From Thermoplasmata archaeon (lineage in GTDB: Archaea > Thermoplasmatota > Thermoplasmata > Methanomassiliicoccales > Methanomethylophilaceae), in NCBI GenBank assembly GCA_015063165.1, contig SUSZ01000003.1:1-64000 (forward strand): 64,000 bases of DNA. Reading direction: 5' to 3'. The position numbers were made by a program, and so were the translations under genes. Position 1 is the stretch's first letter. Every line of letters starts with the position of its first letter. Positions 32,547 through 47,951 of this stretch are shown one piece after another. Below the pieces are notes generated by a model. The model made no database searches. It saw only the letters and a program-made list of their open reading frames with translations, and was not told the origin of the DNA.

Positions 32547-33389
32547 ATGGCAGGAAAAGGCGGCAGACACGTGTACGAAGTGCTTGGGATGTCCCGCGTC
32601 GTGATAGTTGACGGCGAGGTCGTCGAGGTCAGCGAGCCCGAGATCAATTATTGTCCCTTGTTCAAGAAGCTCTGCGGCATGGAGTCGATATCCAAGGAGA
32701 AGATACGCGAGAACATCGAGTTCAGGATCAAGGATTTCGGATTCTGCACCGAGAACAGGGTCGTCCGCGCCAAGGACTACGTCACATTCGGGGTCTCCGA
32801 GATACTGAGCACCGCTCTGGCAAACGGGGAGATCGATGCGGCTGTGATAGCTGCCGACGGATGCGGGACCGCGGTCATCACCGAGCCCGCTCTGCTCCAG
32901 GGACTCTGCGGAAGGATCTCAGGCCTCGTGGAGACGTCTCCCCTGCAGGTTGTCCTGGATGCGGTAGGAAGGGACAACGTCCTAGATCCTGAGACTGTGC
33001 CTCTGGACATGGTCAAAGGCGCCGAGCTCGCGGATTCCAAGGGATACTAGAAGTTCTCGGTGACCGTCGCGAAGCCAGAGGATGCTGCGGCTCTCAAGCA
33101 GAAGTACGGCGACCGCGTGATCATCGTGGGCGTCCACACCAGCCATGTCACCCATGACGGAGCCAGGAAGATGTTCGACAACTGCGACATGATAACCGCG
33201 TGCGCTTCCGGGCCTATGAGGAGGGAAGCGGAGCTCAGGCAGGATGTCCTGGTAGCAGGGAACAAGGTCCAGATCTACGGTGTAACGAAGACCGGGAAGA
33301 ACCTGGTTCTGGACAAGCTGACGTCGATAGGAAGAAAGCCGTATGATGGAGAGGCCAAGGACGAGCCCCGGCCCCTCATAAGCGGGTGA
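32547..33389 (+). CDS. Methanogenesis marker protein 8 (DUF2099) with in-frame TAG (probable pyrrolysine)
   Basis: A protein of the DUF2099 family, found in methanogens and of unknown function. The frame from ATG 32547 is interrupted by TAG at 33048-33050 (codon 168), then continues in the same frame to TGA at 33387-33389, 280 residues in all, the family's usual size. The joint ELADSKGY-[TAG]-KFSVTVA falls where relatives have a GYKKxxVTVA-like strand, so both parts belong to one domain. A cysteine pattern NYCPLFKKLCG lies near the N-terminus and ADGCGTAV in the middle. A separate start at GTG 33060 has no ribosome-binding site. Confidence 0.88.
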
Positions 33390-35382: not shown

Positions 35383-36156
35383 ATGGAAGAGATGGGAAGA
35401 ACGTACCTTATCGTCAGCTACGGCACTACGTCCGAGGCTGTCGAAAACGCTGTATTGGAGAGGCATCCTAACTGCAGCGTCTGCAGGGCTTTCACCAGCC
35501 GCATCGAGGCTAAGAAAGCCAAAGTAGACCACATTTCCACCGTGTTCTCCAGGCTCGCCGACGAAGGTGTGACCGAGATAACCGTCCAGACGCTCGATGT
35601 CATCAACGGCTCCGAGTACGAGATCGTGAAGGACGAGGTCATGAAGAATCTCGATCTGTTCGACGACGTCCGTCTCGGGACTCCCCTTCTGACGTCCGAG
35701 AGGGACTACCGCTCCGTCTGCTCTGCGATCGTCAAGGACATCGTCCCTGAGGTCAACGAGTATGTCGGAGAGGGCACAGTCATCGTCCTCGCTGGACGCG
35801 GATCCGACCATTTCGCCAATTCGTCCTACTGCCAGATGCAGGAGATGCTGAACCTGTCCAACGAGGACGAGTTCGCTGTCACTACCGTGGAGGGATTCCC
35901 TTCCTTCGCAGACACCTGCAAGAGGCTCCACCGCATGGGCGCGACAGAGGTCTCCGTAGTGCCGTTCATCGTAGACCTAGGGGAGGAGGATTCGGAGGAG
36001 ATCGCCGGAAAGGAGGAGGTCTCGCTCAGGATGACCCTCAAATCGGAAGGATTCAAGGTCAAATGCATAATGAAGGACCTCGGAAGCCGCCCCACGTTCC
36101 AGAGGCTCTTTTCCGACCATGCCGATGCGGCGGCCGTCCTCAAGAGGGGCCAATGA
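35383..36156 (+). CDS. CbiK-like sirohydrochlorin chelatase fold protein lacking the catalytic histidines
   Basis: A 257-aa protein collinear with anaerobic cobaltochelatase CbiK: LIVSYGTT, CRAFTSRI, LDVINGSEYE, LGTPLLTSERDY and VVPFIVDLG all align. CbiK inserts Co2+ (relatives Ni2+ or Fe2+) into sirohydrochlorin using two histidines. Here the motif equivalent to MGHGASHH reads LAGRGSDH (Arg139), and GDHA reads GEED (Glu202). So both metal-binding histidines appear replaced. It may use another metal or tetrapyrrole, or act as a binding protein. A MazF-like gene overlaps its end by 4 nt (ATGA), and a nitrogenase-like cluster follows. ATG 35392 is an alternative start. Confidence 0.78.
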   Translation: MEEMGRTYLIVSYGTTSEAVENAVLERHPNCSVCRAFTSRIEAKKAKVDHISTVFSRLADEGVTEITVQTLDVINGSEYEIVKDEVMKNLDLFDDVRLGTPLLTSERDYRSVCSAIVKDIVPEVNEYVGEGTVIVLAGRGSDHFANSSYCQMQEMLNLSNEDEFAVTTVEGFPSFADTCKRLHRMGATEVSVVPFIVDLGEEDSEEIAGKEEVSLRMTLKSEGFKVKCIMKDLGSRPTFQRLFSDHADAAAVLKRGQ

Positions 36157-36518
36157 AGTTCAAGAACGAGCAGGGTGTGCCGAGGCCGTTTGAAGTATGG
36201 AACGCGAGGCTGTACTTCGACAACATGTCCGGGGCCAAGAATCGCCCTGTCATCGTTCTTGAGAAGAGGGACGATGAGTTCACCGTTCTGATGGTCACCA
36301 CCAGCACCAGGGAGCCTGAGAACCATGTCAGTCTCCATGACCCTTACGAGGTGATGCTGGATATGTCCTCGTCGGTCCGCACCGACAGACTCTTCCGGAT
36401 TCCTGAGGACAAGTTCAACTACAAGCTAGGAGACCTTGTCGAGGATGACGTCTCTATGATCTCCGGGATTTTCGCAGAGCATAAGCTCACCAAAGCCTAC
36501 AAACGCAAGGCCTACTGA
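36153..36518 (+). CDS. PemK/MazF-like toxin family protein
   Basis: A 121-aa protein with the MazF/PemK fold pattern: NRPVIVLEKRDDEFTVLMVTTS, then DRLFRIPEDKFNYKLGDL. Typical MazF proteins are sequence-specific endoribonucleases. The open frame extends upstream inside the chelatase-like gene, but ATG 36153 overlaps that gene's TGA and starts the domain. No antitoxin gene is next to it, so it may be a housekeeping relative rather than a toxin-antitoxin toxin. Confidence 0.78.
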   Translation: MKFKNEQGVPRPFEVWNARLYFDNMSGAKNRPVIVLEKRDDEFTVLMVTTSTREPENHVSLHDPYEVMLDMSSSVRTDRLFRIPEDKFNYKLGDLVEDDVSMISGIFAEHKLTKAYKRKAY

Positions 36519-36722: not shown

Positions 36723-38816
36723 ATGTATCGCCTCGCAGTCTACGGCAAGGGTGGTGTCGGGAAGTCCACCGTTTCTGCCAATCTCTCGTATCTTCTGTCT
36801 CTGGACGGAAGCTCGGTGCTCCATGTGGGATGCGACCCCAAACATGATTCAACCAGGCTCCTGACCCATGGGAAGAGCATAAGGACGTTCTCTTCGGACA
36901 CCGGTTCGGATCCTGTGTGCACCGGGCTCAACGGGATAAGCTGCGTGGAGTGCGGAGGGGCAGAACCGGGAAAGGGCTGCGCCGGAAAAGGGATGGAGCT
37001 GATGTTCTCCAGGATATCCGGCGTAGATGCTGATTACAGGGTCAGCGACGTCCTGGGCGATGTCGTGTGCGGAGGATTCTCGATACCTGCAAGGAAGGCG
37101 AACTGCGACGCCGTCCTCATAGTGACTTCCGGAGAATTCATGTCCCTTTTCGCGGCCAACAACATTCTGAAAGGTCTCAGAAACATCAATCCGGGAAGAT
37201 CTGTGATGGGGCTCATTTTCAATCGCAGAGGCGATGCCGGAGAGGAGGAATCTTTGAGGAAGTTCGCCGAGTCGACAGGGCTTCCGATCGTATGCGACCT
37301 TCCTCGCTCCAAGCTATTCAAGGAGGCTGAGGCCGCCGGAGAGGTCCTCTGCGCGCTCTATCCGGATTCGGAGGAAGCGGAGACCCTCAGGAATCTGGCC
37401 GGATTCATAAAAGGCGGACCGGAATGCTTCATTCCGAGGCCGTTGTCCGAGGAGGCCATGGCGGATCTCGCCGCTGGAAGGCCGATCACACATGGCGCCA
37501 GCCAGAAGAAGGACGGCAAATGCAGCTTCGAAGGATACGATGCGGAGCGCAATCTCACCTACGTCGGCGAGTTCGTCATGCCTGCTTGCACCTCTCATGG
37601 AGCCGCCGACGGCGTCATGAGGATAAGGGATGCGGCAGCGATCATGCACGGGCCCAGGAACTGCTCCTATCTCATGGAGTTCGCCTTCAGGCGCAGGGTG
37701 CTGTACGGATCCACGGAAAGGCGGGACGAGCCCCCGGAGCCAGGCATCTACAGCACCTGTCTGGATGCTGCCGAGGCGTTCAAGGATACCGGCAAATTGC
37801 TGGACGATGCGGTTCTCCGTGCTAAGGCCGACGGATATCGCTATATGTTCCTGATTCCCACTTGCTCTTCCGAGATCATGGGGGCGGACCTGTCCAAATC
37901 CGCAGAGGACCTCAGCGCCAAGCACGGTGTGGAGGTGATCCCTGTCGCTCCCGACCCTGTGTTCCTCTCGAGCAAATTCGGGGGAACTTTCGGCCTGTTC
38001 GATGCGTTGATCTCGAGGATGAAGCCGAAACCGATCGAGAAGGGCACAGTCAATCTCGTCGCCAGATGGTTCTACGGTCTTGGAAAGGAGAGGAGCATGT
38101 CGGCTTTGAGCGAGCTGCTGTCGCTTTTCGACCTGAGGATAAGGTTCTGCCTTCTGGATTTCTGCAATATGGCCGAGATCGAGGACTTCTGTGCCGCTGA
38201 GTATGATTTCCAGATAGGACGCGCGAAGCTCAACCGTCGCATCGGAGAGAAGATATCCGAAGCCACCGGGAGGAGGCTGCCTCTGGAGATGGACGTCCCC
38301 GTGGGACTCAGCGGATGCCTCGAATGGGTGTCGTCGATGGCCGAGTATGATCAACAATTCGCGGCCAAGGCCCCCTTGGCCGAGAGGAGGCTCAGGGCCG
38401 AGTTCGATGCCATCGCTGAAAGGTACAGGCCCTTCATCCAAGGGAAGAAGCTGGTCATTTACTGCGTCATGGTCAGGGACCTGAAATGGCAGGTGGAGAC
38501 GCTGAGAGCCCTCGGAGCCGACATCAGAGCGGTCATGTTCGTGGACGGGCCGGTCATCGACCATAACGTCCGCATACCTGACTATGGAGACGTGGAGGTT
38601 CTGACCAGCAGAAGGATGTGCGACCTCAGGAAGCTGATGTCGGAGGAGGATATCGACCTGGTCCTGACGAACGATTCCGATCGTGTAAGACGCGAAGGGT
38701 TCAGGTACGCTCCGCTAGGAACCCGCTTCTACGGTATGGACGGGGTCGACTATTGGGCAAGGAACCTGGTAGACTGCCTCACTGTTCCTCTGCCGACATG
38801 GGAGGCGGGCCTATGA
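36723..38816 (+). CDS. Nitrogenase-like fusion: NifH-type ATPase joined to a NifD/K-type subunit
   Basis: A 697-aa fusion. Residues 1-235 are a NifH-like iron protein: P-loop YGKGGVGKST, the two cluster-ligand cysteines in GCAGKG (Cys86) and DVVCGGF (Cys116), and the TSGEFMSLFAANNI segment. Residues 270-690 are a NifD/K-like subunit with cysteines where nitrogenases bind the P-cluster: MPACTSHGA (Cys289), HGPRNCS (Cys314) and PTCSSEIMG (Cys381). No FeMo-cofactor biosynthesis genes are near. The known methanogen pair CfbC/CfbD (F430 synthesis) is two separate proteins with one D subunit type, unlike this. The next gene, overlapping as ATGA, is the partner subunit. The substrate is unknown. Confidence 0.88.
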   Translation: MYRLAVYGKGGVGKSTVSANLSYLLSLDGSSVLHVGCDPKHDSTRLLTHGKSIRTFSSDTGSDPVCTGLNGISCVECGGAEPGKGCAGKGMELMFSRISGVDADYRVSDVLGDVVCGGFSIPARKANCDAVLIVTSGEFMSLFAANNILKGLRNINPGRSVMGLIFNRRGDAGEEESLRKFAESTGLPIVCDLPRSKLFKEAEAAGEVLCALYPDSEEAETLRNLAGFIKGGPECFIPRPLSEEAMADLAAGRPITHGASQKKDGKCSFEGYDAERNLTYVGEFVMPACTSHGAADGVMRIRDAAAIMHGPRNCSYLMEFAFRRRVLYGSTERRDEPPEPGIYSTCLDAAEAFKDTGKLLDDAVLRAKADGYRYMFLIPTCSSEIMGADLSKSAEDLSAKHGVEVIPVAPDPVFLSSKFGGTFGLFDALISRMKPKPIEKGTVNLVARWFYGLGKERSMSALSELLSLFDLRIRFCLLDFCNMAEIEDFCAAEYDFQIGRAKLNRRIGEKISEATGRRLPLEMDVPVGLSGCLEWVSSMAEYDQQFAAKAPLAERRLRAEFDAIAERYRPFIQGKKLVIYCVMVRDLKWQVETLRALGADIRAVMFVDGPVIDHNVRIPDYGDVEVLTSRRMCDLRKLMSEEDIDLVLTNDSDRVRREGFRYAPLGTRFYGMDGVDYWARNLVDCLTVPLPTWEAGL

Positions 38817-40114
38817 ACAACCGTCCCGACGGGATGCTGGGCGCTGTGATGGCATCCGAATCCCTGGGCCTGACAGACACCATGATCAACGGAGCCGGCG
38901 GATGCCGTTCCAGGACCCAGATCATGATGCACGACCTGATCCCTAACTATGAGCCGGAGAACCGCGGATGCTCCCGTTCCAAGTACTTCAGCAGGCAGTC
39001 CCGTCTTCCCTGCACCTATCTGGGGAATGACGACATCATCTTCGGGACTTCCGCGAAGGTGTTCGAGGGGGTGGAGTCGGTCTCATCCATCACAGGAAGG
39101 AAAGCGGTGCTTCTGGACACTCTGGGGGCGTCTCTTCTGTGCACCGACTACACCGGCCTGACAGGCAATTCGGAAACAAGCCCGATAACCGTGGAAGGGG
39201 ACCTGTCCTCGATGTCCGTGTCGGAAGGATACGATGCCGTCACAGATGCGATCCTGTCATCGCTGGAAATGGGATCGGGGGAGAGCGGCGCCGTCAACCT
39301 GTTCGGATACGGCCTGATGGACCTCGGCTGGGACACCGGCGCCGAGCAGCTCCGCCGTCTGCTGGAACCCATGGGGGTCAAGGTCGGATGCATCGCTGGC
39401 TGCATGCCCTCCAGGGAATCAGTGATGGATTGCGGAAAGGCGGCCCTCAACGTGATGATCCGCCCAGAATACTGCCGCAGGACCGTGGAGCACCTCCACG
39501 AGAGGTTCGGGACGCCGTATCTCAGGCTCTCCGAGGGAGCTCCCATCGGATATCCTGCTATGAGATCTTTCGTCAGGGAGGTCGCAGAAGCCTTGGGTGC
39601 CGATCCGACGCCTTCGTTGGAATACATCGACGCCGATGCAAAAGCCGTCCACAAGGTCCTCATGAACTACGACAGGTCCTCTCTGGCACTGCATTGCAAG
39701 GGATTCGCTATAGACGGGGACTCCTCCTCAGTCTATCCCATCGTGAAATGGGTCTGCGAGACGTTCGGGATGCGTCCAAGGAAGGTCCATGCCTACGACT
39801 GCGAGTACTCGAGAGAGATTGCCGATTACCTTGGGAGTCTGAGCTTCGGCGATGCTCTGGAAGGCTCCGACGGTGAGGTCGTTCTCGTGTTCTCCGACGG
39901 GATGGCCGCTCTGAAAGGCAGGCTGGACCGCGACGACATCGGATACGTGGAGATCGGAATCCCCAGAGGGAGGTACATGGACCTGATGGGGAGGACCCTG
40001 GTCGGAACGCAGGGCTGCAGGTACATCCTGGACGAGATGATGAACGGAATGATGAGGTTCAGGTGCGGCCAGCCTACTGAGGTGGAGTACAGGCCCGGAT
40101 GTGGCAACTGCTAA
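38813..40114 (+). CDS. Nitrogenase component 1-like subunit (NifD/NifK homologue)
   Basis: A 433-aa protein of the oxidoreductase/nitrogenase component 1 superfamily. N-terminal cysteines lie in NGAGGCRSR (Cys31), RGCSRSKYF (Cys53), LPCTYLGNDDIIFG (Cys67) and SLLCTDY (Cys110). The family's second Rossmann-like domain follows (VNLFGYGLMDLG, LEPMGVKVGCIAGCMPS). The C-terminus ends in a cysteine pair (GCGNC). The longer open frame overlaps the previous gene; ATG 38813 is coupled to its TGA. With the fusion protein it probably forms an alpha-beta electron-accepting component fed by the NifH domain. Confidence 0.87.
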   Translation: MNNRPDGMLGAVMASESLGLTDTMINGAGGCRSRTQIMMHDLIPNYEPENRGCSRSKYFSRQSRLPCTYLGNDDIIFGTSAKVFEGVESVSSITGRKAVLLDTLGASLLCTDYTGLTGNSETSPITVEGDLSSMSVSEGYDAVTDAILSSLEMGSGESGAVNLFGYGLMDLGWDTGAEQLRRLLEPMGVKVGCIAGCMPSRESVMDCGKAALNVMIRPEYCRRTVEHLHERFGTPYLRLSEGAPIGYPAMRSFVREVAEALGADPTPSLEYIDADAKAVHKVLMNYDRSSLALHCKGFAIDGDSSSVYPIVKWVCETFGMRPRKVHAYDCEYSREIADYLGSLSFGDALEGSDGEVVLVFSDGMAALKGRLDRDDIGYVEIGIPRGRYMDLMGRTLVGTQGCRYILDEMMNGMMRFRCGQPTEVEYRPGCGNC

Positions 40115-40157
40115 TTTCACCCAAAGCGTATAATATTCCAGGACATGCGGGGGGATT

Positions 40158-41273
40158 ATGGATGGCGGAAGCAGATTAGGGACATTTATCAGGGACGAGA
40201 TTGCCCTGATAATCTGCGGCGTCCTAGCGCTGCTTTCGATGTTCCTGGTGCCCCCGTCCGAGGACTATCTGGATTACATCGACTACCCGATGCTCTGCAT
40301 CCTGTTCTGCCTGATGGCCACTGTAGCCGGCATGGCGGAATGCGGCCTGTTCAAGAACATCTCCGCCAGGCTGCTGTCGGATGCAGCCTCCATACGGAAG
40401 CTGTGCCTGATCCTGGTGGCTCTGCCTTTCTTCGCCTCGATGGCCATCACGAACGACGTCTCCCTTATCACGTTCGTCCCTCTGGCCATCGTCACCCTCT
40501 ATTCGGCCGGCAGGAAGGACCTCGTCATACCCGTGCTGGTCCTTCAGACCATCGCGGCCAACCTCGGCAGCTTCATGACGCCGATAGGGAGCCCTCACAA
40601 CCTGTTCGTCTATTCGAAGTACGACCCTCCAATCTTGGACTTCACCATGGTGGTGCTGCCCTATGTCGTCGTCGGAGCCACAGTGATGTTCCTGGCCAGC
40701 GCCATCTTCTGCAAGGGCGATTCCATGCACGAGGGGGTCGAGATCCCTAAGACCACAGACCATCACATCCTGGTCTCCATGGTCATCCTCTTCGTTCTTA
40801 GCGTCGCATCCGTCGCCAGCCTGGTGCCCTTCTGGATTCCTCTGATCTGCACGGTCACGGCCATCCTGATCCTGAAGCCCGTTCTTCTGACCAAGGTGGA
40901 TTACAGCCTGCTGCTGACCTTCGTATTCCTGTTCATCTTCACAGGGAACGTAGTCAGGATAGAGGAGGTCTCGACGGTTCTGGGCGGCCTTATGGACAGC
41001 CAGCCTCTTCTGACACCGGTCTTCGCCAGCCAGTTCATAAGCAACGTTCCCGCGGCGGTGATGCTGTCCGGATTCACGACGGACTGGCAGAGCCTTCTGG
41101 TCGGCGTGGGCACAGGAGGTTTCGGAACCCCCATCGCCTCGATGGCCAGCCTCATCACCTTCAGGCTTTATGTAAGGGAGAAGGAGCACGATGTCAGGAG
41201 GTTCATGACGGTGTTCCTTATAGGAAACGTCGTCATGCTGGTCCTCCTGATCGCGGTCTCGTATCTGGTTTGA
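40158..41273 (+). CDS. Ion transporter superfamily permease (ArsB/SLC13-like)
   Basis: A 371-aa polytopic protein with about ten spans. It shows two inverted half-repeats typical of the ion transporter superfamily (NhaD, ArsB, CitMHS, SLC13): SMAITNDVSLITFVPLAI, then TPIGSPHNLFVYSK, and in the second half ASQFISNVPAAVMLSGF and GGFGTPIASMASL. Substrates in this group are anions or metalloids. A GGGGG site precedes the ATG and a TATAATA element lies in the 43-bp gap, so it may have its own promoter. Its position directly after the nitrogenase-like pair suggests it moves their substrate or a needed oxyanion. Confidence 0.85.
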   Translation: MDGGSRLGTFIRDEIALIICGVLALLSMFLVPPSEDYLDYIDYPMLCILFCLMATVAGMAECGLFKNISARLLSDAASIRKLCLILVALPFFASMAITNDVSLITFVPLAIVTLYSAGRKDLVIPVLVLQTIAANLGSFMTPIGSPHNLFVYSKYDPPILDFTMVVLPYVVVGATVMFLASAIFCKGDSMHEGVEIPKTTDHHILVSMVILFVLSVASVASLVPFWIPLICTVTAILILKPVLLTKVDYSLLLTFVFLFIFTGNVVRIEEVSTVLGGLMDSQPLLTPVFASQFISNVPAAVMLSGFTTDWQSLLVGVGTGGFGTPIASMASLITFRLYVREKEHDVRRFMTVFLIGNVVMLVLLIAVSYLV

Positions 41274-43241: not shown

Positions 43242-46200
43242 TCAGACCAGGGACAGCTTCGCGTCGTCTCCGATGAACACGTTGCCGCGGAGGTTGGCCG
43301 CGGTCCTTCCGACAGCCTTGCCGTCCACGTAGAACGTCACCTTGTAGAACGAGTTCTTTCCTAGGGGCTTCAGGCCGTCCGAGAACGCCGCGTAGGTCAG
43401 CCCTGTGCACGCGCTGAACGCGCTCGGGCCGATGGTCACCACCGAGGGGAGATTCAGTCCGGACAGGGACTTGCACGCCGCGAAGGCATAATCTCCGATA
43501 GTGGTCACGCAGGGCATGTTGACATATTCCAGAGACTTACAGCTCGCGAAGGACTTGTATCCCACGGTGGTGACTGAGCCGAGGTCGATCCCGGTCAGCC
43601 AAGCGCATCCGTAGAATGCCTTGTCGCTGACGGCTGTGACGTGCCAGTCGTATCCGAGATAGCGGATGCTCTCGGGGACCTTCACGATGCCCTCGAGCTC
43701 CTGGAGGCTCCTCTTCAGGGTGACGGTCTTGTACTCTCCGGTGTCGGTGATGACGTATCTGAGGCCGTCTATGCTGATCGCTCCGCCGACCTTGGGGACG
43801 TACATGGCCAGGCTGTACTTGTTGCCGGTGAACTTGTGTCCGGACAGGCTCTCGGCATCCGTGCTGAGCTTGGTCTCGCCCTCGAAGAAGCTGCATCCGT
43901 AGAACGCGTTGGTCCCGATACTCTGGACGCTGTCGGAGAAGATCACGTACCTTAGCCCGGTGCATCCGCTGAATCCGCTCTTCTCGATGGTCTCGACGCC
44001 GTCGGTCACCTTCAGGGTCCTGATGCCTGTGCATCTGCCGAACGCGTACTGTCCGATGTCCACGTCGATCTCCAGGGACGTTATGCCCTTGCACAGGTAG
44101 AACGCCTTGGCTTCGACCATTCCGACGCTGTAGGTGGCTCCGTCATGCTCCACGGTGGAGCCGATGACCAGCGCGCCTGTCGGAGCGGTCTCGTATCCGA
44201 CGATGTCCACGACCGTGTTGTCCCTGTCAACGATCTCGTACTTTATCCCGTCCTCGACGAACCCGGTCTCCTGGAATCCTATGCAGTACAGGTATCCTGC
44301 GTCGTTCACGAACACCATCCTTCCGTCGGGGAGGAAGTGGACCTGCTGGGAGCACCATTCCCGGATGCAGATGTTCTTCAGCTCCTGGCTGGAGGCGGTG
44401 TTGGTCGCGACGTCGTAGACTCCGATGAAGAGGCTGGTGTAGTCGCTGTAGGATGTGCGGTAGGCGTAGATCTTCCCGTCGTATCCTGTGGAGACGACCA
44501 TGTCCCCGTGGGAGTAGAATCTGGGGTTCTCGGTGCTCGCGACGATATCCATAGTATCCATGTCGAACACGAGGAAGGTGGTGTCAGCGAACACGTATCC
44601 GAGGCCGCCCACGACTATCATAGCGGATGTCTGGCCGTTGCCGGTTCCGCTCGATGCGGTCCTGAGGGTGGCCTCGTCGAACATCCCGTTCGAATCGATC
44701 CTCACCGCTGCGATGTTAATGACGGAGTCCGTGCCCTGGGAATCGAAAATTCCCGCTTCGTAAGCGGTCATCGTGGCGTAGCCTTCGCAGATCTCGATGT
44801 AGCCGGTGTTGGTGAACATGCCCTTGAAGTCGTCGATGTAGATCCTGTCGATCTCCTCTCCGGTCTTGTAATCCACCGTCGACATGAACACGGTGTTCTC
44901 CGTTCCGTAGCCCTCGAACATCATGAACCCGTCGGAGAAGACGATGTAGGCGGCCCCTCTGTAGTCGGTGATGCCGATGCCGATGTCGCGCTTCCAGACA
45001 GGAAGCTGGATGTTGCCGTCAACGGTCGGATCCGAATCCTCCGCGAGGAAGCATCCGGTTCCGCTGTCGTCGGTCAGGTAGAAGAATCCGTCGTGGTAGT
45101 AGCCGGTGATGTCCTTCATGGTGAGGGTGAAGACGTTGACGAGGTTCTCGTCGAACACCTTCCCGGTGTAGCAGTCGAGGATCAGTCCGTTCCCGACGGC
45201 GACGTACTCGTAATATCCGGAGAAGGACTTGGAGGTCGTCACTTCGGCCACCAGGTTCCCGTCGAAATCCACCTTCAGCAGCCTGTTGTCGCACTTGCAG
45301 TAGATGTAGTCGCCCATTATGGCGGGGGCGTAGGTCATGTCCGAGAAGTTCATCCCTGTGACCGTTCCGCCGCCTCCGAAGGTCCATTCCGCAGTGTAGT
45401 TCTCTTCGGTCGGAGTGATGAACGGGACGGTGTGTATGATGGAACCCGTGGCGTAGTACTGGGAGAACACTCTCACGACGACGTCTCCGGACAATCCTTC
45501 TATAACGTACTCGTCGTCGCAGGTCTTCGTGATGTCGCCGTTGATGCTCCAGGATGTGGCTTCGTGTCCGTACTGGGGCGTGAACACGAATCTGACGGAC
45601 GAACCGGCTGGGACCTTCTCCCCGGAGACGATCGCGCAACCGTTGGCGTAAGCGGCGACCTGGCCGTGCTCTGCCGAGAACTCCACGGCGTAGGACTCGC
45701 TGTCCGAGAGCCAGTTGGCGACGAGGGAGACGTCCTCTTCGACTGCTCCGAACTCGTACAGGGCCCCGTCGAGCAGCCATCCTCCGAAGATGTGTCCTTT
45801 CTTCACAGGAGGCAACGGGACCTCAGGAGCCTGTCCGCTCAGGAGGGTCTGGCTGGATACCTTGGATCCTCCGTCGCTGTCGAAGCTGACGGTGACTTCC
45901 GGATTCACGGCTGCTCCCGACATCGAAATGGTGCTGTCCGACGTCATCTCGAAGCTGTAGCTCCAGAAGTCCTCCTTGCATGAGTACGGGGAGATCGATT
46001 CGCCGTCCAGGCTGACCGCGAAGGCGTCGCCGAGGGCGTATCCGGGAATCGCTCTGACGGAGAACCTGACCACTGAGCCATGGGGGATGTTCTCGGTCTC
46101 CAGAATAGACACAGTGACCCCTTCGCAGGCTTCCACGGCGATGTCGTACTTGTTCAGCTCCAATCCGGATATGACGACCGTCGCAGAGCTGCTGAGGTTC

Positions 46201-47951
46201 TTGCAGATGTACATTCCGGAGACGTCCTGCCATTTGATCTCGGTTCCGGACGAGGCTGTCGGGACGCTGCTTCCGTTCTTGGTGACGGTTAGGACGGAAA
46301 GGTCGTGGATCTCGTCGGGTATTACGGAGAACGCCACGGACTTGCCGTCGGTCACAGCGACGATTTCGCACGAGAGCGGGTCGTTGGGCAGGAATATGAA
46401 CTGGCCGTTGTCTATGTCGATGAAGTACCCGGATGGAGGGTAGCAGCCGCTCGCATCCTCGTCGTATGCCCCGTCGAGGTAGAGCACCATCGCATCGGAG
46501 GGCAGCACGAACGAGGCTCTCTCCAGCGCAGGCGAGGAGTACATCAGGATGGTCTGGACAGAGGAGCCGTCAGATGTCGACAGGGCCCAGGTTCTCACTT
46601 CCGCGACCGATTCCGGGATGGAGATGACGCTCTTGGACTTGAGCCCGTCGAGCGACTTCGGCATTATCACGGCTGTATCGTCTCTGATCTCTCCGCCGGA
46701 TATCAGCAGGGCGTCGTCGGCGTACACGGAGCCGTTCTCCACCTCGAGGAAGCTTCCGTCGGTGTCGAAGGTCCCGCCCTTGGATAGGACGGAGCTGACG
46801 GCCGCTCTGGAGACACCGATGTAGCCGGAGTCGATGGAGAGGAGCGAGGTGCTGTCCACTCCGATCAGGATCTTTCCGCTTGCAGTGGCATCCCCATCCA
46901 CGATCGTCGCTTCGATATAGGTGCACCCGTTGTCCGTATCGTTTTTCACTAACGATTTGAGAGGCGTTCCCGAGAAGGCTCCTACGTTGTCGAAAGGCAT
47001 CTCGCTGTGTATGATGAAGGTGTCCAGTTTCGTGCAATTGTTGAATGCATTGGGTACGTTGAGGTTCACTGTGCCGCAGATCTCGATAGTGCCGAGCTTG
47101 GCGCATCCGCTAAAGGTCTGGTAGGGGATGACGAGGTACGAAGGCTCCAGGACGATCTTGGTCAACGAGACCATGTTCTGGAAGCTGCGATCGACCCCGT
47201 TGCTGGAAACTGTCGAAGGAACGGTCAGCTCGGTGATCCCGGTGCCGGAGAAAGCGGATGCTCCGATGCTGGTCACGTTCTTGAGGTCGATCGACTTGAG
47301 AGTCGTGCAGCCGCTGAACATGCTCTCGGGGATGGACGTCATGTCGTCGGACAGCGTCACAGAGCTGAGCTTGGTGCAACCCTTGAACATGCTGTTCGCC
47401 GCCACAGAGCCCTCAGGAAACACGAAGCTCTCCAGAGCTGTGCAGCCGCTGAACATGCTGGATTTGAACGTCTTAACGCCTCCGAGATCGATGCTCTCGA
47501 GCGAGGTGCAGTTGTTGAACATGCTGCTGGCACCGGCCTTGAGCAGATCGGGGAGAGCGATGCTCGTCAGGGAGGAGCATCCGGAGAAAGCGCTCTCGTC
47601 GATGAAGTTGACGTTCTCGGGTATGTCCACGGACGTCAGCGAGCTGCATCCGTTGAACGCGCTCTTTCCCAGATAGGTGATGCCTTCAGAGAGCCTGACG
47701 GACGTCAGCGAGCTGCACTTCTGGAAGGCGTTGTTGCCTAGGACATCCACGGAGTCCGGAAGACTGATCTCGGCTATGTTGGAGTAGTGGAACCCATAGT
47801 CGTTAACGAAGCATATGGTGTCCGGCAGGGCGAGAGAGTCCATCGTGACCCCGTAGAAAGCTCCTCCGCCGATGGTGTCGATGTCTTCGGGGATCTCCAC
47901 CGAGGTGAAGGAGGCGGGGACATAGACGAGGGTGGAGCCGAAGGTCATCAT
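43242..47951 (-). CDS. Giant BspA-type LRR surface protein, downstream part (frameshifted from 47948-48745)
   Basis: A 1569-aa frame lacking its own signal peptide. In order: many BspA/LRR_5 repeats (pattern FxGCTxLxSIxLPxxVTSIGxxAF, residues about 1-330), a beta-rich middle, a Listeria-Bacteroides repeat (about 700, VSFDSDGGSKVSSQTL to GGWLLDGALYEFG), a propeller-like region (about 840-1240), and LRR_5 repeats again to the end. No C-terminal membrane anchor or sorting signal is seen. The upstream 265-aa frame supplies signal peptide and first repeats in another phase. Together they look like one protein of about 1830 residues, secreted and probably adhesive. Confidence 0.85.
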   Translation of the reverse strand: MMTFGSTLVYVPASFTSVEIPEDIDTIGGGAFYGVTMDSLALPDTICFVNDYGFHYSNIAEISLPDSVDVLGNNAFQKCSSLTSVRLSEGITYLGKSAFNGCSSLTSVDIPENVNFIDESAFSGCSSLTSIALPDLLKAGASSMFNNCTSLESIDLGGVKTFKSSMFSGCTALESFVFPEGSVAANSMFKGCTKLSSVTLSDDMTSIPESMFSGCTTLKSIDLKNVTSIGASAFSGTGITELTVPSTVSSNGVDRSFQNMVSLTKIVLEPSYLVIPYQTFSGCAKLGTIEICGTVNLNVPNAFNNCTKLDTFIIHSEMPFDNVGAFSGTPLKSLVKNDTDNGCTYIEATIVDGDATASGKILIGVDSTSLLSIDSGYIGVSRAAVSSVLSKGGTFDTDGSFLEVENGSVYADDALLISGGEIRDDTAVIMPKSLDGLKSKSVISIPESVAEVRTWALSTSDGSSVQTILMYSSPALERASFVLPSDAMVLYLDGAYDEDASGCYPPSGYFIDIDNGQFIFLPNDPLSCEIVAVTDGKSVAFSVIPDEIHDLSVLTVTKNGSSVPTASSGTEIKWQDVSGMYICKNLSSSATVVISGLELNKYDIAVEACEGVTVSILETENIPHGSVVRFSVRAIPGYALGDAFAVSLDGESISPYSCKEDFWSYSFEMTSDSTISMSGAAVNPEVTVSFDSDGGSKVSSQTLLSGQAPEVPLPPVKKGHIFGGWLLDGALYEFGAVEEDVSLVANWLSDSESYAVEFSAEHGQVAAYANGCAIVSGEKVPAGSSVRFVFTPQYGHEATSWSINGDITKTCDDEYVIEGLSGDVVVRVFSQYYATGSIIHTVPFITPTEENYTAEWTFGGGGTVTGMNFSDMTYAPAIMGDYIYCKCDNRLLKVDFDGNLVAEVTTSKSFSGYYEYVAVGNGLILDCYTGKVFDENLVNVFTLTMKDITGYYHDGFFYLTDDSGTGCFLAEDSDPTVDGNIQLPVWKRDIGIGITDYRGAAYIVFSDGFMMFEGYGTENTVFMSTVDYKTGEEIDRIYIDDFKGMFTNTGYIEICEGYATMTAYEAGIFDSQGTDSVINIAAVRIDSNGMFDEATLRTASSGTGNGQTSAMIVVGGLGYVFADTTFLVFDMDTMDIVASTENPRFYSHGDMVVSTGYDGKIYAYRTSYSDYTSLFIGVYDVATNTASSQELKNICIREWCSQQVHFLPDGRMVFVNDAGYLYCIGFQETGFVEDGIKYEIVDRDNTVVDIVGYETAPTGALVIGSTVEHDGATYSVGMVEAKAFYLCKGITSLEIDVDIGQYAFGRCTGIRTLKVTDGVETIEKSGFSGCTGLRYVIFSDSVQSIGTNAFYGCSFFEGETKLSTDAESLSGHKFTGNKYSLAMYVPKVGGAISIDGLRYVITDTGEYKTVTLKRSLQELEGIVKVPESIRYLGYDWHVTAVSDKAFYGCAWLTGIDLGSVTTVGYKSFASCKSLEYVNMPCVTTIGDYAFAACKSLSGLNLPSVVTIGPSAFSACTGLTYAAFSDGLKPLGKNSFYKVTFYVDGKAVGRTAANLRGNVFIGDDAKLSLV

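Follow-up and report, generated by a model that had tools for sequence, protein, structure and literature searches.

The window, a 64,000-nucleotide stretch of archaeal DNA, carries on its forward strand a gene for a NifH–NifD fusion protein (HD; 36723–38816, 697 aa), followed on the same strand by genes for a NifK-like component-1 subunit (K; 38813–40114, 433 aa) and a permease of the CitMHS/ArsB superfamily (40158–41273, 371 aa). The K start codon (ATG, 38813) overlaps the HD stop codon via ATGA, although translation could also begin upstream, at 38798, and K overlapped HD in nearly all of the 49 fusions of the order Methanomassiliicoccales. The initial annotation had proposed this arrangement of fusion, overlapping subunit and permease, and both the open reading frame positions and the Pfam domains agreed with it: HD matched Fer4_NifH (215 bits, residues 3–250) and Oxidored_nitro (135 bits, residues 289–654), K matched Oxidored_nitro (93 bits), and the permease matched CitMHS (88 bits). 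HD can be divided into an Fe-protein domain (about 1–250; H), a low-confidence linker (about 258–287) and a component-1 domain (about 288–697; D). Since H and D are one polypeptide, their ratio is fixed at 1:1.

Among the 49 fusions of the order, HD Cys86, Cys116, Cys314 and Cys381 were invariant and Cys289 was present in 47, in line with the cysteines singled out earlier in this protein. The four cysteines listed for K fared unevenly: Cys31 was near-invariant (47/49) and Cys67 was found in 37/49, whereas Cys53 and Cys110 were mostly confined, among the K proteins of the order, to the subclade of the window copy.

Upstream of HD, profile matching and motif alignment identified a CbiK-family gene (35383–36156, forward strand). 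The initial annotation had called this neighbor chelatase-like; it does belong to the CbiK family, but both catalytic histidines (equivalent to His145 and His207, whose roles are described in PMC7689651) are lost, GHG having become GRG and GDH having become GEE. A second CbiK encoded in the same genome keeps both histidines. An active chelatase beside HD was rejected because of this loss; judged from its motifs, the CbiK-like neighbor is probably not an active cobaltochelatase, and it may have a role in binding or as a carrier. The gene is conserved with the window HD orthologue in the sister species G102 and in G116, and the permease 3′ of K is confined to the closest orthologues of the window copy (G102, G116, and G105). 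A small PemK/MazF-like open reading frame between the CbiK-like gene and HD (36153–36518, forward strand), also conserved in G102, is probably incidental to HD–K. An ArsA–ArsB-like pump in which the H domain drives the permease was not favored, since H keeps the Fe-protein cysteines and most family members have no permease.

Two other genes of the window were noted in passing. A very large, repeat-rich surface-type protein of 1569 aa (43242–47951) has by eye a BspA-type leucine-rich-repeat look. The methanogenesis marker 8 gene (TIGR03275; 32547–33389) contains an in-frame TAG at 33048–33050, where the G102 orthologue has Ala; this TAG is a candidate pyrrolysine codon or recent stop.

Copies and spread of the fusion

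Relatives in public genomes bear the names Methanomethylophilaceae and Methanomassiliicoccaceae, which makes the host of the window most likely a methanogen of the order Methanomassiliicoccales. The genome to which the window belongs (2.28 Mb, 67 contigs) carries five HD fusions, all of them accompanied by a K gene, and by our reading of the match list at least about 70 of the 120 genomes of the order carry at least one. As dozens of genomes share the fusion, a chance origin is excluded. Among 194 genomes of the phylum, none outside the order Methanomassiliicoccales yielded a fusion, and a D-domain search of plasmids gave no match. The impression of a fusion restricted to this order was ruled out by a wider contig scan, which detected fusions in Methanoregula, Methanosarcina sp. 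KYL-1, Clostridium tetanomorphum, several other Clostridia, Treponema, and a Myxococcota bacterium. The fused H–D plus K layout, initially taken to be special to this locus, is therefore not so, with five copies in one genome and more in several phyla.

In a quick tree, fused and unfused H domains were split at 99% SH-aLRT support, which fits a single fusion event; the single "separate" H among the fused H domains (L143) sits near the end of its contig and is possibly a truncated fusion. Judged from these sequences, the family apparently arose by one fusion event followed by horizontal transfer. A Myxococcota metagenome-assembled genome encodes a tandem NifH–NifH–NifD protein of 1085 aa (L139:2627–5884), in which both H domains have the P-loop and the cysteines; although seen on one contig of one such genome, this form points to a possible importance of H-domain pairing on one D–K unit. 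In G030, a D-only paralogue without an H domain adjoins CobN together with K (L123:8929–11507). In relatives, three HD genes (L057, L074, and L090) and several K genes contain a single in-frame TAG, at differing positions, which may reflect pyrrolysine read-through or decay.

A fused nifH/nifE gene in Ca. Methanomassiliicoccus intestinalis, which a 2014 paper names only as a landmark next to an origin-recognition box (PMC4153887), is very probably a member of the HD fusion family; that paper gives no function, context or family analysis for it. We found no functional or family study of the HD fusion in the open-access literature searched, and papers beyond that may exist.

The window HD–K belongs to a derived subclade and is a divergent paralogue within the family. 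The presence of five diverged copies in one genome, the restriction of the window-type CbiK-like gene and permease to the closest orthologues, and the CobN and ChlID chelatases near other copies would fit a division of labor in which the paralogues act on different metallo-tetrapyrroles, and the window copy, together with the CbiK-like protein and the permease, serves a non-corrinoid tetrapyrrole or makes a new one. We consider this unlikely, as the CbiK-like protein is without both catalytic histidines and pathway genes for another tetrapyrrole were not identified.

Corrinoid genes and cobalamin riboswitches near HD–K

Near the other HD copies of the order, we found genes for FecB, FecCD and FecE importers, CobN, ChlI/ChlD and CbiZ, less often genes for S-adenosylmethionine (SAM) methyltransferases and SufB, and, near some copies, FMN-reductase-like genes. 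Counted by genome, 64 had both HD and CobN, 6 HD only, 4 CobN only, and 46 neither (Fisher 9e-22), and the corresponding counts within the family of the window genome were 58/4/2/11 (2e-8); both statistics ignore kinship, which weakens them as an argument for a corrinoid substrate. In 18 of 40 cases in contiguous genomes, CobN was no more than 20 kb from HD (2.5 expected), and in 9 of 15 cases FecCD was no more than 10 kb away (2.6 expected). These counts for HD, CobN and FecCD are approximate and refer to the matches listed. The neighbors of the window copy itself include no importer, CobN or CbiZ, which also speaks against a corrinoid; in the sister species G102, genes for FecB, a methyltransferase, and FecCD adjoin an orthologue of the window HD with 80% identity. 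The window genome encodes five CobN-family large subunits (contigs C27, C17, C25, and C44), and BtuC is abundant in the order, where it forms five clades (PMC10804542).

In Methanoregula, the gene order is CbiZ–ChlI–ChlD–FecB–BtuC-like–FecE–HD–K with CobN nearby, and in Treponema, a riboswitch is followed by PduO–FecB–FecCD–FecE–HD–K–CobU–CbiR–CobT–CobS. The Treponema CbiR, a member of a known family of cobamide remodeling enzymes (PMC7733943), scored above its curated cut-off (121 vs 105), whereas PduO scored below (59.5 vs 108). Among the relatives, L129 has an importer and CbiZ in an operon with HD–K, and L132 an importer, an adenosyltransferase, and a remodeling enzyme.

We compared cobalamin riboswitches in bacterial loci with the fusion, its nearest unfused relatives, and nitrogenase controls. 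A cobalamin riboswitch lay upstream on the same strand at four fused loci (L131, L132, L141, and L134, where about 165 nt separate it from HD) and in both of the closest unfused relatives (L147 and L195), and was absent from the nitrogenase control loci, giving 6/14 vs 0/17 overall (Fisher 0.004) and 4/12 for fused loci only (0.02). The riboswitch was missing in 8 of the 12 fused bacterial loci, which counts against a corrinoid reading; among these 8 are three newly found clostridial fusions that were scanned as a prospective test. Because of these three loci, the riboswitch link is partial: it holds for part of the HD family and is not claimable for all of it. The unfused relatives, from Negativicutes (L195) and Bacillota (L147), have similar H, D and K proteins but encode H and D separately; the former lies with CbiZ, CobN, and a CbiK-like gene and the latter with FecB and FecCD, and both have a BtuB-like receptor, these TonB receptors scoring best against BtuB but under the curated cut-off. 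The link to tetrapyrroles or metals that the initial annotation drew from the CbiK-like neighbor is thus backed as a theme by the corrinoid context of the family, but not by that neighbor.

Reduction of imported iron chelates (siderophores or heme) by HD–K with release of iron, FecBCD being the importer, has a low probability in our view. FecBCD-family importers are the commonest neighbors (FecCD near 28/49 fusions) and FecCD importers also carry siderophores and heme, four HD loci are near SufB, with one subclade near SufB/SufC that fits iron instead of a corrinoid, and some copies have FMN-reductase-like and SAM methyltransferase genes close by. On the other hand, CbiZ, CbiR, CobU, CobT, CobS, PduO and the cobalamin riboswitches of the relatives are corrinoid-specific, and the best match of the TonB receptors likewise favors corrinoids over iron chelates.

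Phylogeny and predicted cofactors

In phylogenetic trees with nitrogenase, Bch and Cfb proteins, a comparison that the initial annotation had called for, H, D and K each formed a clade of their own (support 100/99 for H and 99 for D), apart from NifH/NifDK/NifEN, Bch and Cfb, and the subclades of D and K mirrored each other. D and K did not group with BchNB or BchYZ, although the Bch branches were long and their placement is therefore unsure. The D profile scored 147 bits against one NifE, 133 against one NifD, and only 29–48 against CfbD, while K scored best against BchB, NifK and BchZ.

The D cysteines Cys289, Cys314 and Cys381 align with NifD C62/C88/C154, and K Cys31 aligns with BchB Asp36, a BchZ Cys, and NifK C95; on the alignment, NifK C70 and C153 have no equivalent in K. 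A 3+3 P-cluster completed in the window clade by K Cys53 and Cys110 was rejected, because these cysteines fall off NifK C70/C153. The ligands thus form a 3+1 set (D C289, C314 and C381 plus K C31) of the type found in dark-operative protochlorophyllide reductase (DPOR) and chlorophyllide reductase (COR), and the 3+3 P-cluster site is absent. On the alignment, the D domains of the order have neither the NifD C275 nor the H442 equivalent; the Methanosarcina sequence (L140) has a Cys in the C275 column and no His442. The 3+1 ligand set and the absent FeMo-cofactor ligands predict, at the level of sequence, that HD–K is a [4Fe-4S]-only reductase.

The AlphaFold model of K (pLDDT 77.9, pTM 0.81) had its best fold match in BchB of DPOR and also matched NifK. 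In the HD model (pLDDT 78.7, pTM 0.59), both domains were folded and the linker (258–287) was of low confidence, so that the relative placement of the H and D domains is not reliable. A fold search with this model returned only Fe-protein among the matches listed, which says nothing about D.

HD–K resembles DPOR (BchLNB) and COR (BchXYZ) in combining an Fe protein with a heterotetrameric component 1, in its 3+1 [4Fe-4S] ligand set, and in having no FeMo-cofactor ligands; the fold of K is closest to BchB, and BchH (CobN family) and ChlI/ChlD accompany Bch genes as CobN and ChlID accompany HD–K. It differs from them in its fused H and D, its own clades, its non-phototroph hosts, and its corrinoid context, and the fourth ligand is Cys in HD–K but Asp in BchB.

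Methylthio-alkane reductase (Mar) works with metalloclusters of the nitrogenase type, and isethionate reductase (Isr) depends on a radical-SAM partner gene. These group IV enzymes are, as HD–K probably is, nitrogenase-like HDK enzymes acting on non-N2 substrates, but have separate H and D genes and a sulfur context. It is very unlikely that HD–K is a nitrogenase or a group IV C–S bond cleaving enzyme of the Mar/Isr type with a NifB-made cluster: the best D-domain scores against NifE and NifD and the presence of nifB in the genome would suit such an enzyme, but D keeps neither Cys275 nor His442, the P-cluster ligand set is without its second half, there is no radical-SAM neighbor, and NifB also occurs in methanogens without nitrogenase, where it is probably needed for MCR activation (PMC12176620). 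A FeMo-cofactor enzyme was rejected on account of the missing ligands. A true nifHDKEN-like operon occurs in G036, from the family of the window genome (L107:5427–13198).

The F430 enzyme CfbCD of methanogens is nitrogenase-like and, as proposed for HD–K, a tetrapyrrole reductase with [4Fe-4S] clusters only. A genome search, which the initial annotation had called for, located a separate canonical cfbB–D–E–C operon on contig C50, with CfbD at 395 bits (cut-off 268) and CfbE at 289 bits (cut-off 250), and the lone Fe-protein gene of the genome sits in this operon. Although CfbC was the best NCBIfam match of the H domain (222 bits, against a cut-off of 402), we reject a rearranged CfbC–CfbD as extremely improbable, given this separate operon of separate genes, the distance of D from CfbD in profile scores and trees, the K subunit (CfbD is a homodimer without K), and the fusions in non-methanogens. 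In the quick tree, a CfbC of Methanomethylophilaceae (L021:4653–5429) grouped with bacterial nitrogenase-like H proteins (Treponema, Synergistaceae, and Desulfovibrionaceae) and not with other CfbC proteins.

A proposed corrinoid reductase

From the gene structure, the conserved cysteines, the absent FeMo-cofactor ligands, the phylogeny, the gene context, and the riboswitches in relatives, we infer the cluster types, substrate and reaction of HD–K. We propose, with confidence about evenly balanced against doubt, that HD–K is a two-component, ATP-driven [4Fe-4S] reductase, that the substrate of the family is most likely an imported corrinoid, and that the window copy carries out this chemistry on a corrinoid or on a metallo-tetrapyrrole related to one. 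In this scheme, two H domains would dimerize around a [4Fe-4S] cluster held by Cys86 and Cys116 and hydrolyze ATP, and low-potential electrons would pass from H to a second [4Fe-4S] cluster at D Cys289, Cys314 and Cys381 and K Cys31, and finally to a substrate in the D–K cavity, with no FeMo-type cofactor involved. The imported corrinoid would be reduced from Co(II) to Co(I), or in its macrocycle, and then be adenosylated and remodeled by PduO, CbiZ or CbiR, CobU, CobT and CobS. Corrinoid adenosylation needs Co(I), and that step requires a strong reductant. The Treponema operon would cover the uptake of cobamides, their adenosylation, removal of the lower ligand, and reassembly, and HD–K could supply the reductant; reduction of the corrin ring, or assistance to CobN in taking out or inserting the metal, would be alternatives that the data do not separate.

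More tentatively, and with somewhat more doubt than belief, the HD fusion family may be the first case of a nitrogenase-like enzyme working in vitamin B12 metabolism. It would be regulated by B12 and driven by ATP, would carry a tethered Fe protein, and would reduce cob(II)corrinoids or the corrin ring during cobamide salvage; the family would have spread horizontally among anaerobes of the gut and elsewhere and have multiplied in Methanomassiliicoccales. A structural question also arises from the fusion: each component-1 docking site normally needs an H dimer, yet the two docking sites of an (HD)2K2 tetramer would have only two H domains between them.

If true, a nitrogenase-like reductase in cobamide salvage would be a new role for this enzyme superfamily, could provide strict anaerobes with a strong reductant for corrinoid adenosylation, and would explain the multi-copy "nifH/nifD" annotations in gut genomes, which could otherwise be misread as nitrogen fixation. 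Since Methanomassiliicoccales make methane via corrinoid-dependent methyltransferases, the acquisition and activation of corrinoids bear on the methane output of ruminants and people.
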